Shown here: in pieces, positions 25,259-55,856 of the stretch | Position numbering within the stretch: the stretch's first letter is position 1 | Layout: each line of letters starts with the position of its first letter | Assembly: GCA_947498935.1 (NCBI GenBank) | Contig: CANMMM010000014.1 | Coordinates: forward strand, 62,001-126,000 | Source of the DNA: an uncultured Aquimarina sp. | GTDB taxonomy: Bacteria > Bacteroidota > Bacteroidia > Flavobacteriales > Flavobacteriaceae | Direction: 5' to 3' | Length of the DNA: 64,000 nucleotides | Notes under the pieces: generated by a model | What the model was told of the DNA's origin: nothing | What the model saw: only the letters and a program-made list of their open reading frames with translations | Databases searched by the model: none | Translations under genes and position numbers: made by a program

Positions 25259-25503
25259 TGTTAGTTTATTTTGAATTGATTGCCTACGTAAGGTTTTTCG
25301 GCTTGACCCCGTTTTGAATAGTTTCTGGACTCTATACATTGATAATTGTCTGTATATATATGTCAAAACAAGGGAAAATGTTACCCCCCTTTTTTGACTT
25401 TTTTTCAAAAAAAATTATCAGCTATAGAAAGGGAAGAAGCTATTTTTGGTGATGTGTGTTTTTAAGTTGTTGTTTTTTAGTATTTTGTGTTGTTTTTTCT
25501 TCT

Positions 25504-25591
25504 GCGTTAGGGATAGTAGCGGCATCCTTTTTTATTTTCTTAAAAAAATAAAAAAGATATAGCGGATAGCCCGACCCTTGTGGTAACGCCC
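25504..25591 (+). repeat. Family I dispersed repeat, copy 3 (subtype B)
   Basis: GCGTTAGGGATAGTAGCGGC, an inner T-rich/A-rich stem (ATCCTTTTTTATTTTC / AAAAATAAAAAAGAT), then AGCGGATAGCCCGACCC and AACGCCC. Subtype B differs from copies 1 and 2 only in the inner stem. Confidence 0.9.
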
Positions 25592-40478: not shown

Positions 40479-40566
40479 GGGCGTTACCACAAGGGTCGGG
40501 CTATCCGCTATATCTTTTTTGTTTTTTAAGGAAAACAAAAAAGGATGCCGCTGCTATCCCTAACGC
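40479..40566 (-). repeat. Family I dispersed repeat, copy 4 (subtype B, inverted)
   Basis: GGGCGTTACCACAAGGGTCGG, inner stem with TTTTTTGTTTTTTAAG / AAAACAAAAAAGGAT, then GCTATCCCTAACGC. It lies in the gap between purL and the nuclease gene. Confidence 0.9.
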
Positions 40567-40587
40567 AGCAGCTATCGTATCTAAAAA

Positions 40588-44368: not shown

Positions 44369-44403
44369 ATTTTTTCTGTTGTTAATTTATAGTGTTTTTG
44401 GTG

Positions 44404-44492
44404 ATGCGTTAGGGATAGGAGTGGCATCCTTTTTTGTTTTCCTAAAAAAACAAAAAAGATATAGCGGATAGCCCGACCCTTGGGGAACGCCC
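44404..44492 (+). repeat. Family I dispersed repeat, copy 5, inside the ECF operon
   Basis: GCGTTAGGGATAGGAGTGGC, an inner T-rich/A-rich stem, AGCGGATAGCCCGACCC and GGAACGCCC. It lies between the anti-sigma gene and the Spy-like gene, which are probably one transcript. Confidence 0.9.
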
Positions 44493-44529: not shown

Positions 44530-45051
44530 TTATTCTGGGTATAGGGTGTCTATATCGGTATCTGATAAATAGTCGATCAATGATTCTTGCGCTGGTATGT
44601 CTGTCGCTAGGGATGTAAAAGTGGCATCCTCATCAAATAGAGTTGCGATTTCTGTATCCGTAAGCTCGATATAACCATCATTTATATAGGTGTGTACATC
44701 GGTAGCAGTTACTAATAGAGGTTCTGGAGTTGGTTTTTGTACTATATATATAGTAATTATAATGGCTATCATGGCTGCTAAGCTAGCAATGAGTTGTATT
44801 TTTTTGGGCGTATATAACGGGATTATAGTTGTTTTTTCTTTGGGGGTTTCGGTCGGTAGTTGCTCGAATATTTGATCTTCTATGCGATCTAAATAAGCAG
44901 GGGGTAGCGTAAAACCACTTTCGATACGCTCAGGTAGGGGATTCACACTATTTTCTTGCTCTAGATGATGCAGCAGCTTTTCTTCGAAGGTATCGAAGTA
45001 GTCAGGTGGAGTATTAAACCCTGATGGGATATGTTTTTTATCTTTTTTCAC
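44530..45051 (-). CDS. Probable anti-sigma factor
   Basis: 173 residues. An N-terminal cytoplasmic domain (SGFNTPPDYFDTFEEKLLHHL and SGFTLPPAYLDRIEDQIFEQL; the pattern P-x-x-Y-x-D is repeated) is followed by one membrane helix (IQLIASLAAMIAIIITIYIV, about residues 92-112) and a short periplasmic tail. Its position 31 bp after the ECF sigma gene fits an anti-sigma role. The zinc-binding HxxxCxxC motif of classic ZAS domains is absent, so the assignment rests on topology and context. Confidence 0.65.
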   Translation of the reverse strand: MKKDKKHIPSGFNTPPDYFDTFEEKLLHHLEQENSVNPLPERIESGFTLPPAYLDRIEDQIFEQLPTETPKEKTTIIPLYTPKKIQLIASLAAMIAIIITIYIVQKPTPEPLLVTATDVHTYINDGYIELTDTEIATLFDEDATFTSLATDIPAQESLIDYLSDTDIDTLYPE

Positions 45052-45082: not shown

Positions 45083-45628
45083 TTAATGGTTTTTTAAAAA
45101 TTGTTCAATTTTTTTAGTTGCTAAGTGATAGGAGGCTTTTAGTGCACCTTCACTCGTTTGCAGAATGGCTGCTATTTCTCGGTATTTGAGTTCTTGGAAA
45201 TACTTCATATTGAATACCTGTTGCTGTTTTTGAGGAAGGGTAGCAATAGCTTGTTGGAGTTTTAACTGTATTGTATTTCCATCATAATAGGCATCTGCTT
45301 CGAGGTTTTCTATCAGTTGCTGTTGCAATTGTTCTAAACTGATGTTATTTTTTTTAGCTTTTTGATTTAGAAAGGTAATCGCTTCATTGGTAGCAATTCT
45401 GTATAACCATGAATAGAGTTTGCTATCGCCTCTGAATTGATGTATGCCTTTATAGGTTTTAATAAATACGTTCTGAAGGATATCATCTGTATCATCATGG
45501 TTTTTTACCATATGTCTGATATGCCAGTATAGGGGGTGTTTATACTTAGCTACTAATTGACGAAAAGCAGCATCGCTATTATCATTATTTTGTAATGCAT
45601 GAATAATGTCTTCGTCTTGTATTTTCAA
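45083..45628 (-). CDS. ECF RNA polymerase sigma factor
   Basis: 181 residues from a TTG at 45628 (EDIIHALQNNDNSDAAFRQLV follows at once). The frame is open to another TTG at 45703; no ATG exists. Region 2 contains HIRHMVKNHDDTDDILQNVFIKTYKGIHQFRGDSKLYSWLYRIATNEAI; region 4 contains LPQKQQQVFNMKYFQELKYREIAAILQTSEGALKASYH. It heads the operon with the anti-sigma and Spy-like genes. It is transcribed away from the small RNA array, whose first unit begins about 160-230 bp away. Confidence 0.9.
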   Translation of the reverse strand: MKIQDEDIIHALQNNDNSDAAFRQLVAKYKHPLYWHIRHMVKNHDDTDDILQNVFIKTYKGIHQFRGDSKLYSWLYRIATNEAITFLNQKAKKNNISLEQLQQQLIENLEADAYYDGNTIQLKLQQAIATLPQKQQQVFNMKYFQELKYREIAAILQTSEGALKASYHLATKKIEQFLKNH

Positions 45629-45830
45629 AATAAGTAGTTCTGTTGTATTATTTTTGTTAGTAACAGCTAGTACACCTTGTGTATCTTTTTCTAAGATACG
45701 CAAAAGAGTTAAACAAGATGCTTGTCAGAAGATGATAGTTTAAAATGTAAGAATTTTGTTAAATTGTAAGAAAAAAAATGATTTATACTTGATGAAAAAC
45801 ACAAAATATAGTTGTTTTACTTATTGATTA

Positions 45831-45860
45831 TTGTTTTTTATAAAAAAAGTAGTATATTTA
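45831..45860 (+). promoter_or_regulatory. Promoter of array unit 1
   Basis: TTG (45831-45833), 19 bp, TATATTTA (45853-45860). Same layout as in the other units. Confidence 0.6.
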
Positions 45861-45863
45861 TAT

Positions 45864-45997
45864 TATGATAATATACTAATAATTAATACCTTATATGGTT
45901 AGGTGTTTTTATTAGTGATGAGTTTTATAATTTTAGAATTAGCCACTAGATTTAAAACTATTTGTGTGAAGAAAAAGAGTGTTTATACACTCTTTTT
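45864..45997 (+). ncRNA. Tandem small RNA array, unit 1 (diverged)
   Basis: Outermost left copy. It keeps GAGTTTTATAATTTTAGAAT, TAGCC-CTAGATTTAAA and TTTGTGTGAAG but lacks the GTCCCCAAAGG segment. It ends in its own terminator AGAGTGT-TTAT-ACACTCT followed by T. Compared with units 2-7 the terminator stem has changed base pairs on both sides, which keeps the pairing. Confidence 0.65.
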
Positions 45998-46149
45998 CTA
46001 TTTTAAAGGATATTAATTTTTTAATTATGTTAAAAAGAATAACAAGAAAAAGATTACTTAATATATTATTGATTAACGATTAAAAGTCTATAAAAAAAGA
46101 TAAAATGCAATATTATTTGTTTAACTGTAAAAAAGTAGTATATTTACGG

Positions 46150-46288
46150 TATAAGAATAGATAAGCACTTTTATTGTCCCCAAGATAGAAGTAATTATAA
46201 ATTTGAGTTTTTTAATTTTAGAATAAGCCCCTAAATTTAAGATGATTTGTGTGAAGAGGAAGAGCGCTAGTATAGCGCTCTTTTTTTT
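46150..46288 (+). ncRNA. Tandem small RNA array, unit 2
   Basis: Promoter TTTG (46116-46119), 19 bp, TATATTTA (46139-46146). Body contains GATAAGCACTTTTATTGTCC followed by CC, the hairpin AATTTTAG-loop-CTAAATTT and TTTGTGTGAAG. Terminator GAGCGCTA (46262-46269), GTA, TAGCGCTC (46273-46280), then eight T. Confidence 0.8.
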
Positions 46289-46412
46289 ATACTACTTTTA
46301 TAAAAGTAGTATAATTCTTACTCTAAATATAATATTTACGACAAAAACAACAAAATATCAGATAAAAAGCATTTTTTGTTTGTTTGATTCAAAATTTATT
46401 GTATCTTTATAG

Positions 46413-46544
46413 TGTAATAATTAAAGAACTACTCTTATCACCCCAAAGTAAAAGTAGTTATAAGTTTGAGTTTTTATTTTATATTAAGCCCTAAATTTTA
46501 AGATGTTTTGTGTGAGTAAAAGAGCGTTGAAAGACGCTCTTTTT
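46413..46544 (+). ncRNA. Tandem small RNA array, unit 3 (diverged)
   Basis: Promoter TTTG (46379-46382), 19 bp, TATCTTTA (46402-46409). The 5' part reads TTAAAGAACTACTCTTATCA then CCCC; the core has TATTTTATATTAAGCCCTAA. Terminator AGAGCGT, TGAAAG, ACGCTCT, then T. Stem bases differ in parallel on both arms from those of units 2 and 4-6. Confidence 0.75.
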
Positions 46545-46686
46545 ATTTTTCAGTGCTTATATATGTTGTGTAGGATTAATCTTATTTATTTTCTATTTAA
46601 AACATGATTTAACCTATAAAAAGCTTATTTTTTAGATAAAATACATTTTTTATTTGTTAGATTGTAAAAAAGTAGTATCTTTACAG

Positions 46687-46823
46687 TGTAAGAAAAGATA
46701 AGCACTTTTATTATCCCCAAGGTAAAAGTAATTATAAATTTGAGTTTTTAATTTTAGAATAAGCCCCTAAATTTAAGATGATTTGTGTGAAGAGAAAGAG
46801 CGCTAGTATAGCGCTCTTTTTTT
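46687..46823 (+). ncRNA. Tandem small RNA array, unit 4
   Basis: Promoter TTTG (46653-46656), 19 bp, TATCTTTA (46676-46683). Nearly identical to units 5-7; TATCCCC replaces TGTCCCC. Terminator GAGCGCTA-GTA-TAGCGCTC (46798-46816) plus seven T. Confidence 0.8.
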
Positions 46824-46969
46824 GTTTATTACTTTTTGAAGACTATTATATTTGTAGGATAATTCTTTTTAATTAATGTATTTGTATTTTTAAAACCTTT
46901 AAAATGCAATTTTTTTAGATAAAAAGCATAATTTGTTTGCTAGATTGTAAAAAAGTAGTATCTTTACAG

Positions 46970-47107
46970 TGTAAGAATAGATAAGCACTTTTATTGTCCC
47001 CAAAGGTAGAAGTAATTATAAATTTGAGTTTTTAATTTTAGAATAAGCCCCTAAATTTAAGATGATTTGTGTGAAGAGAAAGAGCGCTATACTAGCGCTC
47101 TTTTTTT
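46970..47107 (+). ncRNA. Tandem small RNA array, unit 5
   Basis: Promoter TTTG (46936-46939), 19 bp, TATCTTTA (46959-46966). Core hairpin: AATTTTAG (47034-47041), loop AATAAGCCC (47042-47050), CTAAATTT (47051-47058). Terminator GAGCGCTA-TAC-TAGCGCTC (47082-47100), with a different loop triplet from the neighbours but an intact stem. Confidence 0.82.
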
Positions 47108-47254
47108 GTTTACTACTTTTTGAAGACTATTATTTTTGTAGGGTAATTCTTTAGTATTAGTATATTTTCATTTTAAAACATCTTTAAAACGCAATTTTTT
47201 TAGATAAAACACATAATTTGTTTGCTAGATTGCAAAAAAGTAGTATCTTTACAG

Positions 47255-47392
47255 TGTAAGAATAGATAAGCACTTTTATTGTCCCCAAAGGTAAAAGTAA
47301 TTATAAATTTGAGTTTTTAATTTTAGAATAAGCCCCTAAATTTAAGATGATTTGTGTGAAGAGGAAGAGCGCTAGTATAGCGCTCTTTTTTT
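47255..47392 (+). ncRNA. Tandem small RNA array, unit 6
   Basis: Promoter TTTG (47221-47224), 19 bp, TATCTTTA (47244-47251). Body as in unit 5 with GGTAAAAG for GGTAGAAG. Terminator GAGCGCTA-GTA-TAGCGCTC (47367-47385) plus seven T. Confidence 0.82.
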
Positions 47393-47539
47393 GTTTACTA
47401 CTTTTTGAAGACTATTATCTTTGTAAGATAATTCTTTATTTTTGGTGTATTTGTATTTTAAAATATCTTTAAAATACAATTTTTTTAGACAAAATACATA
47501 ATTTGTTTGCTAGATTGCAAAAAAGTAGTATCTTTACAG

Positions 47540-47674
47540 TGTAAGAATAGATAAGCACTTTTATTGTCCCCAAAGGTAGAAGTAATTATAAATTTGAGTT
47601 TTTAATTTTAGAATAAGCCCCTAAATTTAAGATGATTTGTGTGAAGAGAAAGAGCGCTAATACAGTGCTCTTTT
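47540..47674 (+). ncRNA. Tandem small RNA array, unit 7
   Basis: Promoter TTTG (47506-47509), 19 bp, TATCTTTA (47529-47536). Body identical in the core to unit 5. The terminator is slightly decayed: GAGCGCT...AGTGCTC pairs through one G-U, and the T-run is only four, so it may be leaky. Confidence 0.78.
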
Positions 47675-47810
47675 GCTTTTTAAACGCATCATGAGACTAT
47701 TTAAAAGCGAGGACTTCATTTTACTTAAAAAAAAACAGATAAAATGAATGATTTTTAAGACTAAGTGTGTTAATTTTTTTGTAGAAGATAAAAAAGTAGT
47801 ATCTTTATAC

Positions 47811-47939
47811 TATTAAAAAAGAAGCTTCTTTCATGTAGTTAATGAAAAAGCTTTAAAATAAAGTGAGTTTTAATTTTAGAATAACCCTAAATTTAAGATG
47901 GTTTGTGTGTAGAAAAAGAGCGTGGAGACGCTCTTTTTT
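47811..47939 (+). ncRNA. Tandem small RNA array, unit 8 (diverged)
   Basis: -7 box TATCTTTA (47800-47807); the -33 is TTTG with an 18-bp spacer. The 5' half is unrelated (AGAAGCTTCTTTCATGTAGT region), but the 3' core TTTTAATTTTAGAATAACCC, TAAATTTAAGATGGTTTGTG and the terminator AGAGCGT-GGAG-ACGCTCT plus six T are kept. Confidence 0.7.
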
Positions 47940-47965: not shown

Positions 47966-48011
47966 AAAAAGCTGTCTAGAGATTATGCGTAAATAATCTA
48001 GACAGCTTTTT
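47966..48011 (-). terminator. Terminator of the phosphosugar mutase gene
   Basis: AAAAAGCTGTCTAGA and TCTAGACAGCTTTTT form a 15-bp stem. It separates the mutase gene from the small RNA array and could stop both strands. Confidence 0.9.
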
Positions 48012-48040: not shown

Positions 48041-49771
48041 TTAGCTAATATGTAGATCTCTTTTAATTTGATCGATTTTTGTCACTAATTGTTGCTCTAC
48101 AGCATTAAAATCATCTACTGTAGGTAATGGCTCAGATACACTGATGTAGAATTTAATCTTAGGTTCTGTACCACTAGGACGTGCAGCTATTTTACTACCT
48201 GCTTCTGTATAAAAGATAAGTACGTTTGATTTAGGAATTTCGATAGCTTGCTCACTATCATCCTGTATGTTTTTAGCAATACTAGTTTGATAGTCTTCAA
48301 TCAATACAATTTTTTCATTATTAAAATGTGTTGGAGGATTGTTTCTAAGATCAATCATTGTTTGCTTGATTTCTTCAGCGCCTTTAATACCTTTTTTGAC
48401 CAGGGATACTAAGTTTTCTTTAAAAAATCCATGTGTTTGGTACAATGCTAATAGCTCTTTATAAAAGGAGGAACCTTTAGATTTTGTATGTGCTACAATC
48501 TCACAGGCCAGTATGGTAGAGGTAACAGCATCTTTATCTCTTACAAAATCTCCTACCATAAATCCAAAACTTTCTTCTCCACCACCAATAAAGTTTTCGT
48601 TAGGATAATCCTTGATCAGTTTTGCGATCCACTTGAACCCTGTTAGTACTTCTTTATAGGTTACTCCAAAGGCATCGGCTAGATTCTTCATCATTGGTGT
48701 GGATACAATAGTAGATGCGATAAACTCATTGCCTTGGAAACCTTTTGTGTCTTTATAGTATTGTAGTAGAAACCATGTCATGACAATCATGGTCTGATTT
48801 CCATTGAGTAATTGTAATTCTCCATCGTTATTTCTGACAGCGATTCCTAATCGGTCGCAATCAGGATCTGTACCAATTACGATGTCTGCTTGTACTTCTG
48901 CTGCAAGTTCCATAGCCATGGTCAGGGCTTCTGGCTCTTCTGGGTTTGGAGATACTACTGTAGGGAAGTTACCATCTGGTTTTTCTTGCTCCTTAACAAT
49001 GTGTACATTGGAATATCCTGCTTTTTCTAATGTCGCAGGAATAGCAGTAATCGAAGTACCGTGTAGTGATGTAAACACGATAGTCGTATCATCTTTGGCC
49101 GCTTGCGAGGCGATAAAACTTCCGTTTTCTACACAATTAGCGATAAAAGGAGTGTCAATCTCTTGATCTATTTTTTGAATAAGCTCAGGATTGGTATCAA
49201 ATTTTATATCGGCATAATTAAGTCCGTTGATTTCTGCGATGATTGCTCCATCTTGCGGCGGTACGAGTTGCCCTCCATCTTGCCAGTATACTTTATATCC
49301 ATTATACTCAGGCGGATTATGACTCGCTGTAAGTACAATACCGCAGTGGCATCCTAGTTCTTTTACTGCAAAAGATAATTCTGGTGTAGGACGTAAGCTG
49401 GTAAATAAGTATACTTTAATCCCATTTGCAGAAAATACATCGGCTACTACTTGCGCCAGTGTATCACTATTATTTCTACAATCATAAGCAATCACTGCTT
49501 TTGGCTGTTCATTAGGGAATTGCTGTAGTAAGTAATTGCTCAGTCCTTGCGTACTTTTTCCTAAGGTATATTTATTGATTCTATTGGTGCCCACGCCCAT
49601 GGTACCTCGCATACCTCCTGTACCAAATTCTAAATCTTTATAGAAACTTTCTTTTAGGTACTCTACATCTGTTTGCTGTAGTGTTTCAATTTCTTTTCTA
49701 GTATTTTTATCAAAAACGGGAGTTAACCATTCTGCTATTTTGGTGTCTATCAGAGAATCTGTGATTTGCAT
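48041..49771 (-). CDS. Phosphoglucomutase/phosphomannomutase family phosphosugar mutase
   Basis: 576 residues, typical of the phosphopentomutase/PGM2-like long form. It moves a phosphate between C1 and C6 (or C5) of a sugar. Motifs: LEFGTGGMRGTMGVGTNRINKYT near the N terminus, the phosphoserine loop GIVLTASHNPPEYNGYKVYWQDGG, the metal loop GTDPDCDRLGIAV, the sugar loop GGGEESFGFMVGDFVRDKDAV and the phosphate loop ARPSGTEPKIKFY. Sugar specificity is not decided by these. It is probably monocistronic and ends at the terminator facing the small RNA array. Confidence 0.92.
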   Translation of the reverse strand: MQITDSLIDTKIAEWLTPVFDKNTRKEIETLQQTDVEYLKESFYKDLEFGTGGMRGTMGVGTNRINKYTLGKSTQGLSNYLLQQFPNEQPKAVIAYDCRNNSDTLAQVVADVFSANGIKVYLFTSLRPTPELSFAVKELGCHCGIVLTASHNPPEYNGYKVYWQDGGQLVPPQDGAIIAEINGLNYADIKFDTNPELIQKIDQEIDTPFIANCVENGSFIASQAAKDDTTIVFTSLHGTSITAIPATLEKAGYSNVHIVKEQEKPDGNFPTVVSPNPEEPEALTMAMELAAEVQADIVIGTDPDCDRLGIAVRNNDGELQLLNGNQTMIVMTWFLLQYYKDTKGFQGNEFIASTIVSTPMMKNLADAFGVTYKEVLTGFKWIAKLIKDYPNENFIGGGEESFGFMVGDFVRDKDAVTSTILACEIVAHTKSKGSSFYKELLALYQTHGFFKENLVSLVKKGIKGAEEIKQTMIDLRNNPPTHFNNEKIVLIEDYQTSIAKNIQDDSEQAIEIPKSNVLIFYTEAGSKIAARPSGTEPKIKFYISVSEPLPTVDDFNAVEQQLVTKIDQIKRDLHIS

Positions 49772-54286: not shown

Positions 54287-54373
54287 GGACGTTACCCAAG
54301 GGTCGGGCTATCCGCTGTATCTTTTTTATTTTTTTAGGAAAATAAAAAAGGATGCCGCTTCTATCCCTAACGC
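54287..54373 (-). repeat. Family I dispersed repeat, copy 6 (subtype B, inverted)
   Basis: GGACGTTACCCAAGGGTCGG, inner TTTTTTATTTTTTTAG/AAAATAAAAAAGGAT stem, CTATCCCTAACGC. It is only 14 bp from family III copy 4. Confidence 0.9.
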
Positions 54374-54386
54374 ATTATTAGTTCAT

Positions 54387-55652: not shown

Positions 55653-55769
55653 CTATATTAAGATTTAGGTTAATAAGTTATTACTTACGAATATAGTTAA
55701 AAAGAGTTAAAAAATCGTTGTTTTGAATTTTTTTATCGTTAAAGTGTGGTTTTTTGATTTTGACATGAT

Positions 55770-55856
55770 GCGTTAGGGATAGGAGCGGCATCCTTTTTTA
55801 TTTTCCTAAAAAAATAAAAAAGATACAGCGGATAGCCCGACCCTTGGGGAACGCCC
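55770..55856 (+). repeat. Family I dispersed repeat, copy 7 (subtype B)
   Basis: GCGTTAGGGATAGGAGCGGC, T-rich/A-rich inner stem, AGCGGATAGCCCGACCC, GGAACGCCC. Confidence 0.9.

Follow-up and report, generated by a model that had tools for sequence, protein, structure and literature searches.

Eight tandem units of a predicted small RNA gene in Aquimarina, from a multicopy family that looks specific to the genus

Described multicopy small RNAs and the Aquimarina array

Multicopy sibling small RNAs (sRNAs) are known; for Bacteroides the literature consulted gives two families of this kind, each linked to the RRM protein RbpB. The FopS/GibS sRNAs of Bacteroides thetaiotaomicron are described as 14 paralogs with canonical housekeeping promoters, FopS being about 65-70 nt long, binding RbpB and repressing susC (PMC11697453). 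LhrC1-5 of Listeria monocytogenes are presented as sibling sRNAs of 111-114 nt with C-rich target-binding stretches, whose UCCC pairs with AG-rich Shine-Dalgarno sequences and whose target contact is said not to require Hfq (PMC6794450). Rfp18 of Flavobacterium psychrophilum, which is reported to affect metalloprotease mRNA levels, is described as a structured sRNA that forms three or more stem-loops and is conserved across its genus (PMC9723704).

In the window (the whole 64-kb stretch of Aquimarina DNA that was analysed) we find eight tandem units of a small-RNA gene at 45.83-47.95 kb, each consisting of a -7 box, a structured RNA of ~130-140 nt and an intrinsic terminator. They represent a well-conserved RNA gene family outside Rfam, in a long tandem array, of an already known kind, the multicopy sRNAs. 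The Rfam covariance search proposed with the original prediction gave no gathering-score match to any family in the array; at a lax threshold nine matches appeared there, all far below gathering, and none fits. Flavo-1 (RF01705) shares the window with the array, but its five matches by covariance model, at 25495-25580(+), 40490-40577(-), 44395-44482(+), 54297-54380(-) and 55757-55846(+), all lie outside 45.8-48.0 kb. These five Flavo-1 RNAs in 64 kb score 58-65 bits.

Like FopS/GibS, the Aquimarina family belongs to Bacteroidota, is multicopy and has housekeeping-type promoters; unlike them, its RNAs are ~135 nt long and largely in tandem, and a search of the genome for RRM_1 proteins came back empty (0 matches, a Bacteroides genome being among the positive controls). 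Hfq likewise gave no match in this genome, with five of 14 control genomes positive, which speaks against placing the RNAs among Hfq-dependent sRNAs; the failure to find either protein sets the family apart from the RbpB-FopS circuit. The original prediction had likened the units in principle to LhrC, and the likeness holds as an analogy, the array being several sibling units (eight, ~135 nt) of similar size with loops that may be comparably C-rich: CCC occurs in the roughly placed H2 hairpin region of 81 of 93 family copies and in the H1 region of 73, units 1 and 8 lacking the H1 C-run. Membership is not supported, the array belonging to another phylum and having no gathering-score match to the families that Rfam covers. 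The array RNAs look most like LhrC and FopS, as comparable rather than demonstrably homologous families. Rfp18, compared by description only, is also a structured, genus-conserved RNA and comes from the same bacterial family; the covariance model of the array RNAs (R1, below) found nothing strong in other genera of a sample of that family, which bears indirectly on homology to Rfp18. Type III toxin-antitoxin arrays are tandem RNA units adjoining an endoribonuclease toxin gene; this candidate was rejected, the present units having their own promoters and a sigma factor gene and pgm as direct neighbours. No description of an Aquimarina sRNA was found in the literature searched, which was thin on subscription journals and had outside it PMC9426491, a paper naming Aquimarina and sRNA.

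Promoters, structure and conserved core

Promoters, start sites and RNA ends of the units are predictions from sequence, and the ends are estimates. The -7 boxes were found again at the predicted starts, 45853, 46139, 46402, 46676, 46959, 47244, 47529 and 47800, giving box-to-box spacings of 286, 263, 274, 283, 285, 285 and 271; Tandem Repeats Finder reports for the array a period of 285 with 5.6 copies and 82% matches. Bacteroidota housekeeping promoters have the layout TTTG-N19-TAnnTTTG. The box of every unit is TATATTTA or TATCTTTA, and in seven of the eight a TTG stands exactly 19 nt before it, as had been claimed, satisfying TTG-N19-TAnnTTTA. The TAnnTTTG part is also named in PMC9723704. 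By their sequence the unit boxes, seven with TTG, are predicted promoters of this housekeeping type. The whole window has 12 matches to TTG-N19-TAnnTTTA, against 2.8 in 100 shuffles (sd 1.7, largest 7); seven are the unit promoters and five are other sites. The bare pattern is no proof of a promoter, because two non-promoter matches fall within the array region too, at 46324 (minus) and 47442 (plus). Among 93 family copies from 21 genomes the promoter box is present in 91 and TTG at exactly 19 nt in 75, counts that lean upward because the promoter was itself part of the profile by which the copies were detected and positioned.

The consensus of these 93 copies consists of a variable 5' leader, hairpin H1 (CUUUCAU, a CCCC-containing loop, AUGAAAG), a short spacer, hairpin H2 (UUUUAAUUUUAG, an AAGCCC-containing loop, CUAAAUUAAGA), the linker UGAUUUGUGUGAAGA, and a terminator of variable sequence. 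Exact matches to GAUGAUUUGUGUGAAG occur in 85 of the copies and to UUUGUGUG in 91.

All eight units lie on the plus strand, their promoters located by pattern match. Unit 1, with promoter TTG-N19-TATATTTA at 45831-45860 and predicted sRNA at 45864-46003 (fold z -5.4), is divergent, having a different H1 stem and the H2 loop GCCAC. Unit 2 has its promoter at 46117-46146 and its sRNA, predicted by fold (z -4.9) and core search, at 46150-46288; the divergent unit 3 follows with promoter at 46380-46409 and sRNA at 46413-46546 (z -2.7). For unit 4 the promoter is at 46654-46683 and the sRNA, by fold and core search, at 46687-46823. The fold of unit 5 (promoter 46937-46966, predicted sRNA 46970-47107) places H1 at about 46981-47019, H2 at about 47030-47062, the linker at about 47063-47074 and the terminator hairpin at about 47075-47107. 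Fold and core search also identify the sRNAs of unit 6 (47255-47392, promoter 47222-47251) and unit 7 (47540-47675, promoter 47507-47536). Unit 8 has the box TATCTTTA at 47800-47807 without TTG at 19 nt, and a predicted sRNA at 47811-47939 (z -5.5) with its own H1 stem and a shortened H2 loop.

The units fold better than their own shuffles (z -2.7 to -5.5); the weakest test is that of unit 3, where three of 200 shuffles were as good, and the other units had no more than that. A GC-rich hairpin and T-rich tail end all eight units, most weakly in unit 7, and a simple terminator scan called four of them only (units 3, 4, 7 and 8). A search with the 41-nt core, allowing up to three mismatches, gave five matches, all exact, and none in 100 shuffles. 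Folds, terminator hairpins and core search thus bear out the expected conserved units of ~130-140 nt with a core and an intrinsic terminator.

Between units, transcripts are better conserved than spacers, though two spacer pairs are also fairly alike. The transcript pairs U2-U4, U4-U5, U5-U6 and U6-U7 are identical at 130-133 of 138-139 positions, and the spacers that follow them at 57/109, 94/110, 96/110 and 50/113 respectively; two fairly alike spacer pairs are as expected from recent whole-unit duplication. Units 1, 3 and 8 are the more divergent members of the array. Compared with unit 5, the transcript is identical at 89/141 positions in unit 1 and 105/139 in unit 3, and the spacer at 51/114 and 70/121. 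In these three units the parts closest to unit 5 are H2 (79-91%) and the linker (75-81%); the promoter is at 65-78%, and H1 (40-63%) and the terminator sequence (48-56%) are the parts that differ.

For covariation the 93 copies were reduced to 53 by clustering at 93% identity, after removal by hand of two copies with the 3' part only, one cut by a contig end and one divergent copy from G011. The aligned 53 rows (A3) differ from the clustered 53 by three swaps: G003:4281187 and G013:10034, which diverge in the direction of the 5' end, were omitted together with G019:203926, and window unit 5, G001:2080469 and G020:2920657 were added; this choice of rows favours the structure, because divergent rows were omitted. 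RNAalifold gave no pairs on the 53-row alignment, we think on account of misaligned outlier rows, and we therefore drew up the structure manually, using the folds of individual family members, before pairs were counted, a procedure that favours that structure. On this alignment both-sided changes occur in seven of eight H1 pairs and eight of ten terminator pairs, and on each of five measures the alignment scores above every one of 500 shuffles and every slid version, the 53 rows being related and the shuffles ignoring that relatedness. H2 has no both-sided pair changes in the 53 rows, because its sequence hardly varies, and so rests on folding only. Conservation is 94-99% in the H2 arms, 91% in the H2 loop and 98% in the linker, against 71% in the 5' leader, a pattern suggesting that H2 and the linker are used in a sequence-specific way. 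R1 was built from 41 of the 53 rows; unit 1 was missed and the rest were omitted as near-duplicates.

Mode of action

Our best reading is of eight tandem genes for sibling trans-acting sRNAs of a genus-specific multicopy family (probability roughly 0.6). That the units are real sRNA genes we regard as almost certain: the prediction of independently transcribed siblings gains support from the promoter and terminator of each unit, from covariation in H1 and the terminator, from transcripts better conserved than spacers, and from strong family scores in 65 of 66 genus genomes. Each unit would be transcribed separately from its own predicted promoter. The RNA would act in trans, using its conserved H2 loop and linker to base-pair with mRNAs, possibly ones that serve the envelope or cell surface, and having several copies would raise the RNA dose. 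Trans base-pairing is slightly favoured, and for a dose effect of the multiple copies the balance is even. Nearly the whole genus keeps an sRNA family that is missing from Rfam, with as many as 13 copies in one genome, and in the window's genome neither Hfq nor RRM_1 was detected; the conserved core and the array offer a tractable system for studying how sRNAs act in this phylum and why they are duplicated.

Pairing of the linker, H2 loop and H1 loop was examined at the starts of 1598 genes, located in 2.08 Mb or about 44% of the genome. At -14 kcal/mol or better, 27 genes paired with the linker, against a mean of 14.1 for 25 shuffled linkers (sd 3.6, max 21), an excess that is weak and not specific to start regions, because the scaled count for gene interiors, 21.8, was almost as high. 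At -12 kcal/mol the H1 loop paired with 95 genes (shuffles 63.5, sd 15.7, max 101; inside genes 196) and the H2 loop with 28 (shuffles 23.1, sd 2.7, max 29; inside genes 61); in the 1598 genes neither loop shows a clear excess at Shine-Dalgarno/start regions, with more pairing inside genes than at starts. Three of the 12 best linker candidates (ranks 1, 3 and 12) were followed into orthologs, and for none of them is the pairing kept: the means are -8.5 for an enoyl-CoA hydratase (26 rows including its own gene), -7.3 for odhB (26 rows) and -9.2 for an outer-membrane-like protein (10 rows), and the best ortholog pairing besides the own gene is -13.0 for the three. Genes beside family copies gave no convincing conserved pairing; nearest was the bkd E1 leader, at -7.5 to -12.2 in six loci, without a matching background. 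The sigma mRNA leader reaches -16.8 in the window, yet -8.2 to -12.3 in the other 16 of 17 loci. With these three candidates not kept in orthologs and the sigma leader pairing well only in the window, no target is supported.

The lack of a conserved mRNA pairing in these comparisons leaves some room for RNAs that chiefly bind protein, the H2 hairpin and UG-rich linker forming a protein site and the many copies titrating the protein. This is a doubtful alternative, though the best of those considered: conservation is highest over an entire hairpin and the adjoining linker, not over a short seed, and titration fits the high copy number, but neither RRM_1 nor Hfq, the two kinds of RNA-binding protein searched for, was found in the genome. 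The trans-acting sRNA reading can also be widened, to a genus-defining RNA regulator free of Hfq and RRM, with tandem copy number tuning its dose and its loci tied to ECF-sigma surface signalling. The basis for that tie is the sigma operon that the main array faces and the FecI-FecR-TonB-lipocalin clusters flanked by dispersed copies in several species; the extended version as a whole seems to us unlikely.

Distribution, neighbourhood and copy history

A covariance-model search of Aquimarina gave a match at E <= 0.01 in all 66 genomes, and at 3.5e-9 or better in 65; the other, G351 (89% complete), has E 0.0063 only, no better than weak matches outside the genus. The genus total is 282 matches, one to 13 per genome, with at least two in 51 genomes. 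The window's genome (4.77 Mb) holds the most, 13 copies, being the eight of the array and five elsewhere, on contigs C9, C44, C27 (cut by the contig end), C10 and C22. Dispersed copies retain the same core as the array units; those on C10 and C22 keep mainly linker and terminator. The window's array is long, yet not the sole long one, because G348 has 11 copies, at least seven of them within 2.8 kb.

Outside the genus, strong scores in a family sample of 299 genomes came only from the window's own genome and one genome of the same genus. Four other genomes there have weak matches (E 0.001-0.008; about three expected by chance), none with TTG-N18-20-TAnnTTT[A/G] within 200 bases upstream, and an order sample of 395 genomes added one weak match (L321, E 6.5e-4); both large searches used stricter filters, with some weak matches lost. 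Among 80 pgm loci, strong R1 copies are present in three only, those of Aquimarina sp. AU58, an uncultured Aquimarina and A. spongiae, whose pgm proteins are the nearest named relatives of the window's (77-81% identity). No R1 copy was found at the pgm locus labelled A. agarivorans (68%) or at that of an Aquimarina-labelled MAG (67%), both of which may lie outside the genus as defined by the genome set. With no convincing match outside Aquimarina in these samples, the family looks genus-specific.

In a tree of 90 of the 93 copies (33 of 87 inner branches weakly supported, bootstrap unsettled), copies cluster by genome in G003, G010, G012 and G016, as do seven of the ten own-genome copies included, and close relatives (G001, G002, G004 and G020; G006, G014 and G018) group their copies by position; it follows that, over longer periods, lineages expanded or homogenised their own arrays. 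Such multiplication within genomes, some of it at new places, would also be expected of a spreading repeat without cellular function, REP-like or like a small mobile element, that carries promoter and terminator along, and in one genome (L036) a protein that we take to be an IS transposase lies between copies. That origin is very unlikely, given that almost every genome of the genus carries the family, in many cases next to the same sigma gene, that core, promoter and compensatory pairs are better preserved than spacers, and that the family was not found in viral contigs searched with two exact core words or in phages and plasmids searched by blastn with unit 5.

The sigma gene, of ECF type (45083-45703, minus strand, start codon unsure; Pfam Sigma70_r2 and Sigma70_r4_2), diverges from the array and is followed by a putative anti-sigma factor gene (44530-45051, minus), named by position with no Pfam hit; the third gene of the operon resembles Spy/CpxP-type proteins (LTXXQ, Metal_resist), below curated cut-offs only. 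As originally noted, no plus-strand gene follows the array: a perfect 15-bp inverted repeat with 16 nt between its arms (47966-48011), probably the pgm terminator, closes the region, and the next gene is the convergent phosphoglucomutase-type pgm (48041-49771, minus; Pfam PGM_PMM_I/II/III). In at least 16 of 21 genomes a family copy sits no more than about 1.5 kb from an ortholog of the sigma gene, a lower bound because only part of the copies were retrieved, and in the loci inspected the copies are divergent from it. Downstream of sigma-linked copies comes pgm, or what we take to be an ABC-transporter-like gene and then pgm.

This proximity could reflect an action of the array in cis on the sigma gene, such as transcription interference or supercoiling, but dispersed copies at other loci keep the same core and pairing with the sigma leader is not conserved in the 17 loci, making a cis effect more improbable still than a spreading repeat. 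The idea that every unit codes for a very short peptide, read as GTG-SFNFR[I/V/L]SP-stop in H2, is rejected as the least credible of all: 74 of 93 copies have GTG where the frame would start, 55 of these with VSFNFR[I/V/L]SP, but that position is TGA in eight copies and TAA in two, a recognisable H2 arm is missing in five, a 2-nt deletion shifts the frame in G003, and the conserved hairpin enclosing the frame can account for its conservation.

The loci read for dispersed copies were chosen, not random, and Pfam was run on the G009 proteins only. In G006, G009, G010, G014 and G018 such copies adjoin genes for a 2-oxoacid dehydrogenase E1 and a lipocalin-like lipoprotein, with TonB-receptor, FecR and FecI genes nearby and, in four of the five, a Band_7 gene. 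At L037, L040, L045 and L046 family copies flank a TonB receptor-FecR-FecI-lipocalin cluster on both sides, about 6-9 kb apart. Upstream of the ECF sigma gene a conserved ATTAAACCTTTTTTATGTA-like stretch and then TTAGTC were seen in most of the 17 loci read (L007, L008, L009, L011, L013-L015, L018-L020, L029, L079 and others), in altered form in the window; the stretch may be an autoregulated ECF promoter.

Three copies, L038:3350-3533, L044:445-628 and L176:11200-11293(-), keep linker and terminator (altered in L176) with another 5' half, the first two without a promoter box of the family type; they are possibly chimeric or decayed siblings. The dispersed copies at L044:430-760 (contig C10) and L042:4450-4700 (contig C9) share the terminator and the DNA behind it, and a repeated CACAGCAGGGTTT element lies near the copies on both contigs, which hints at copying of the 3' part.
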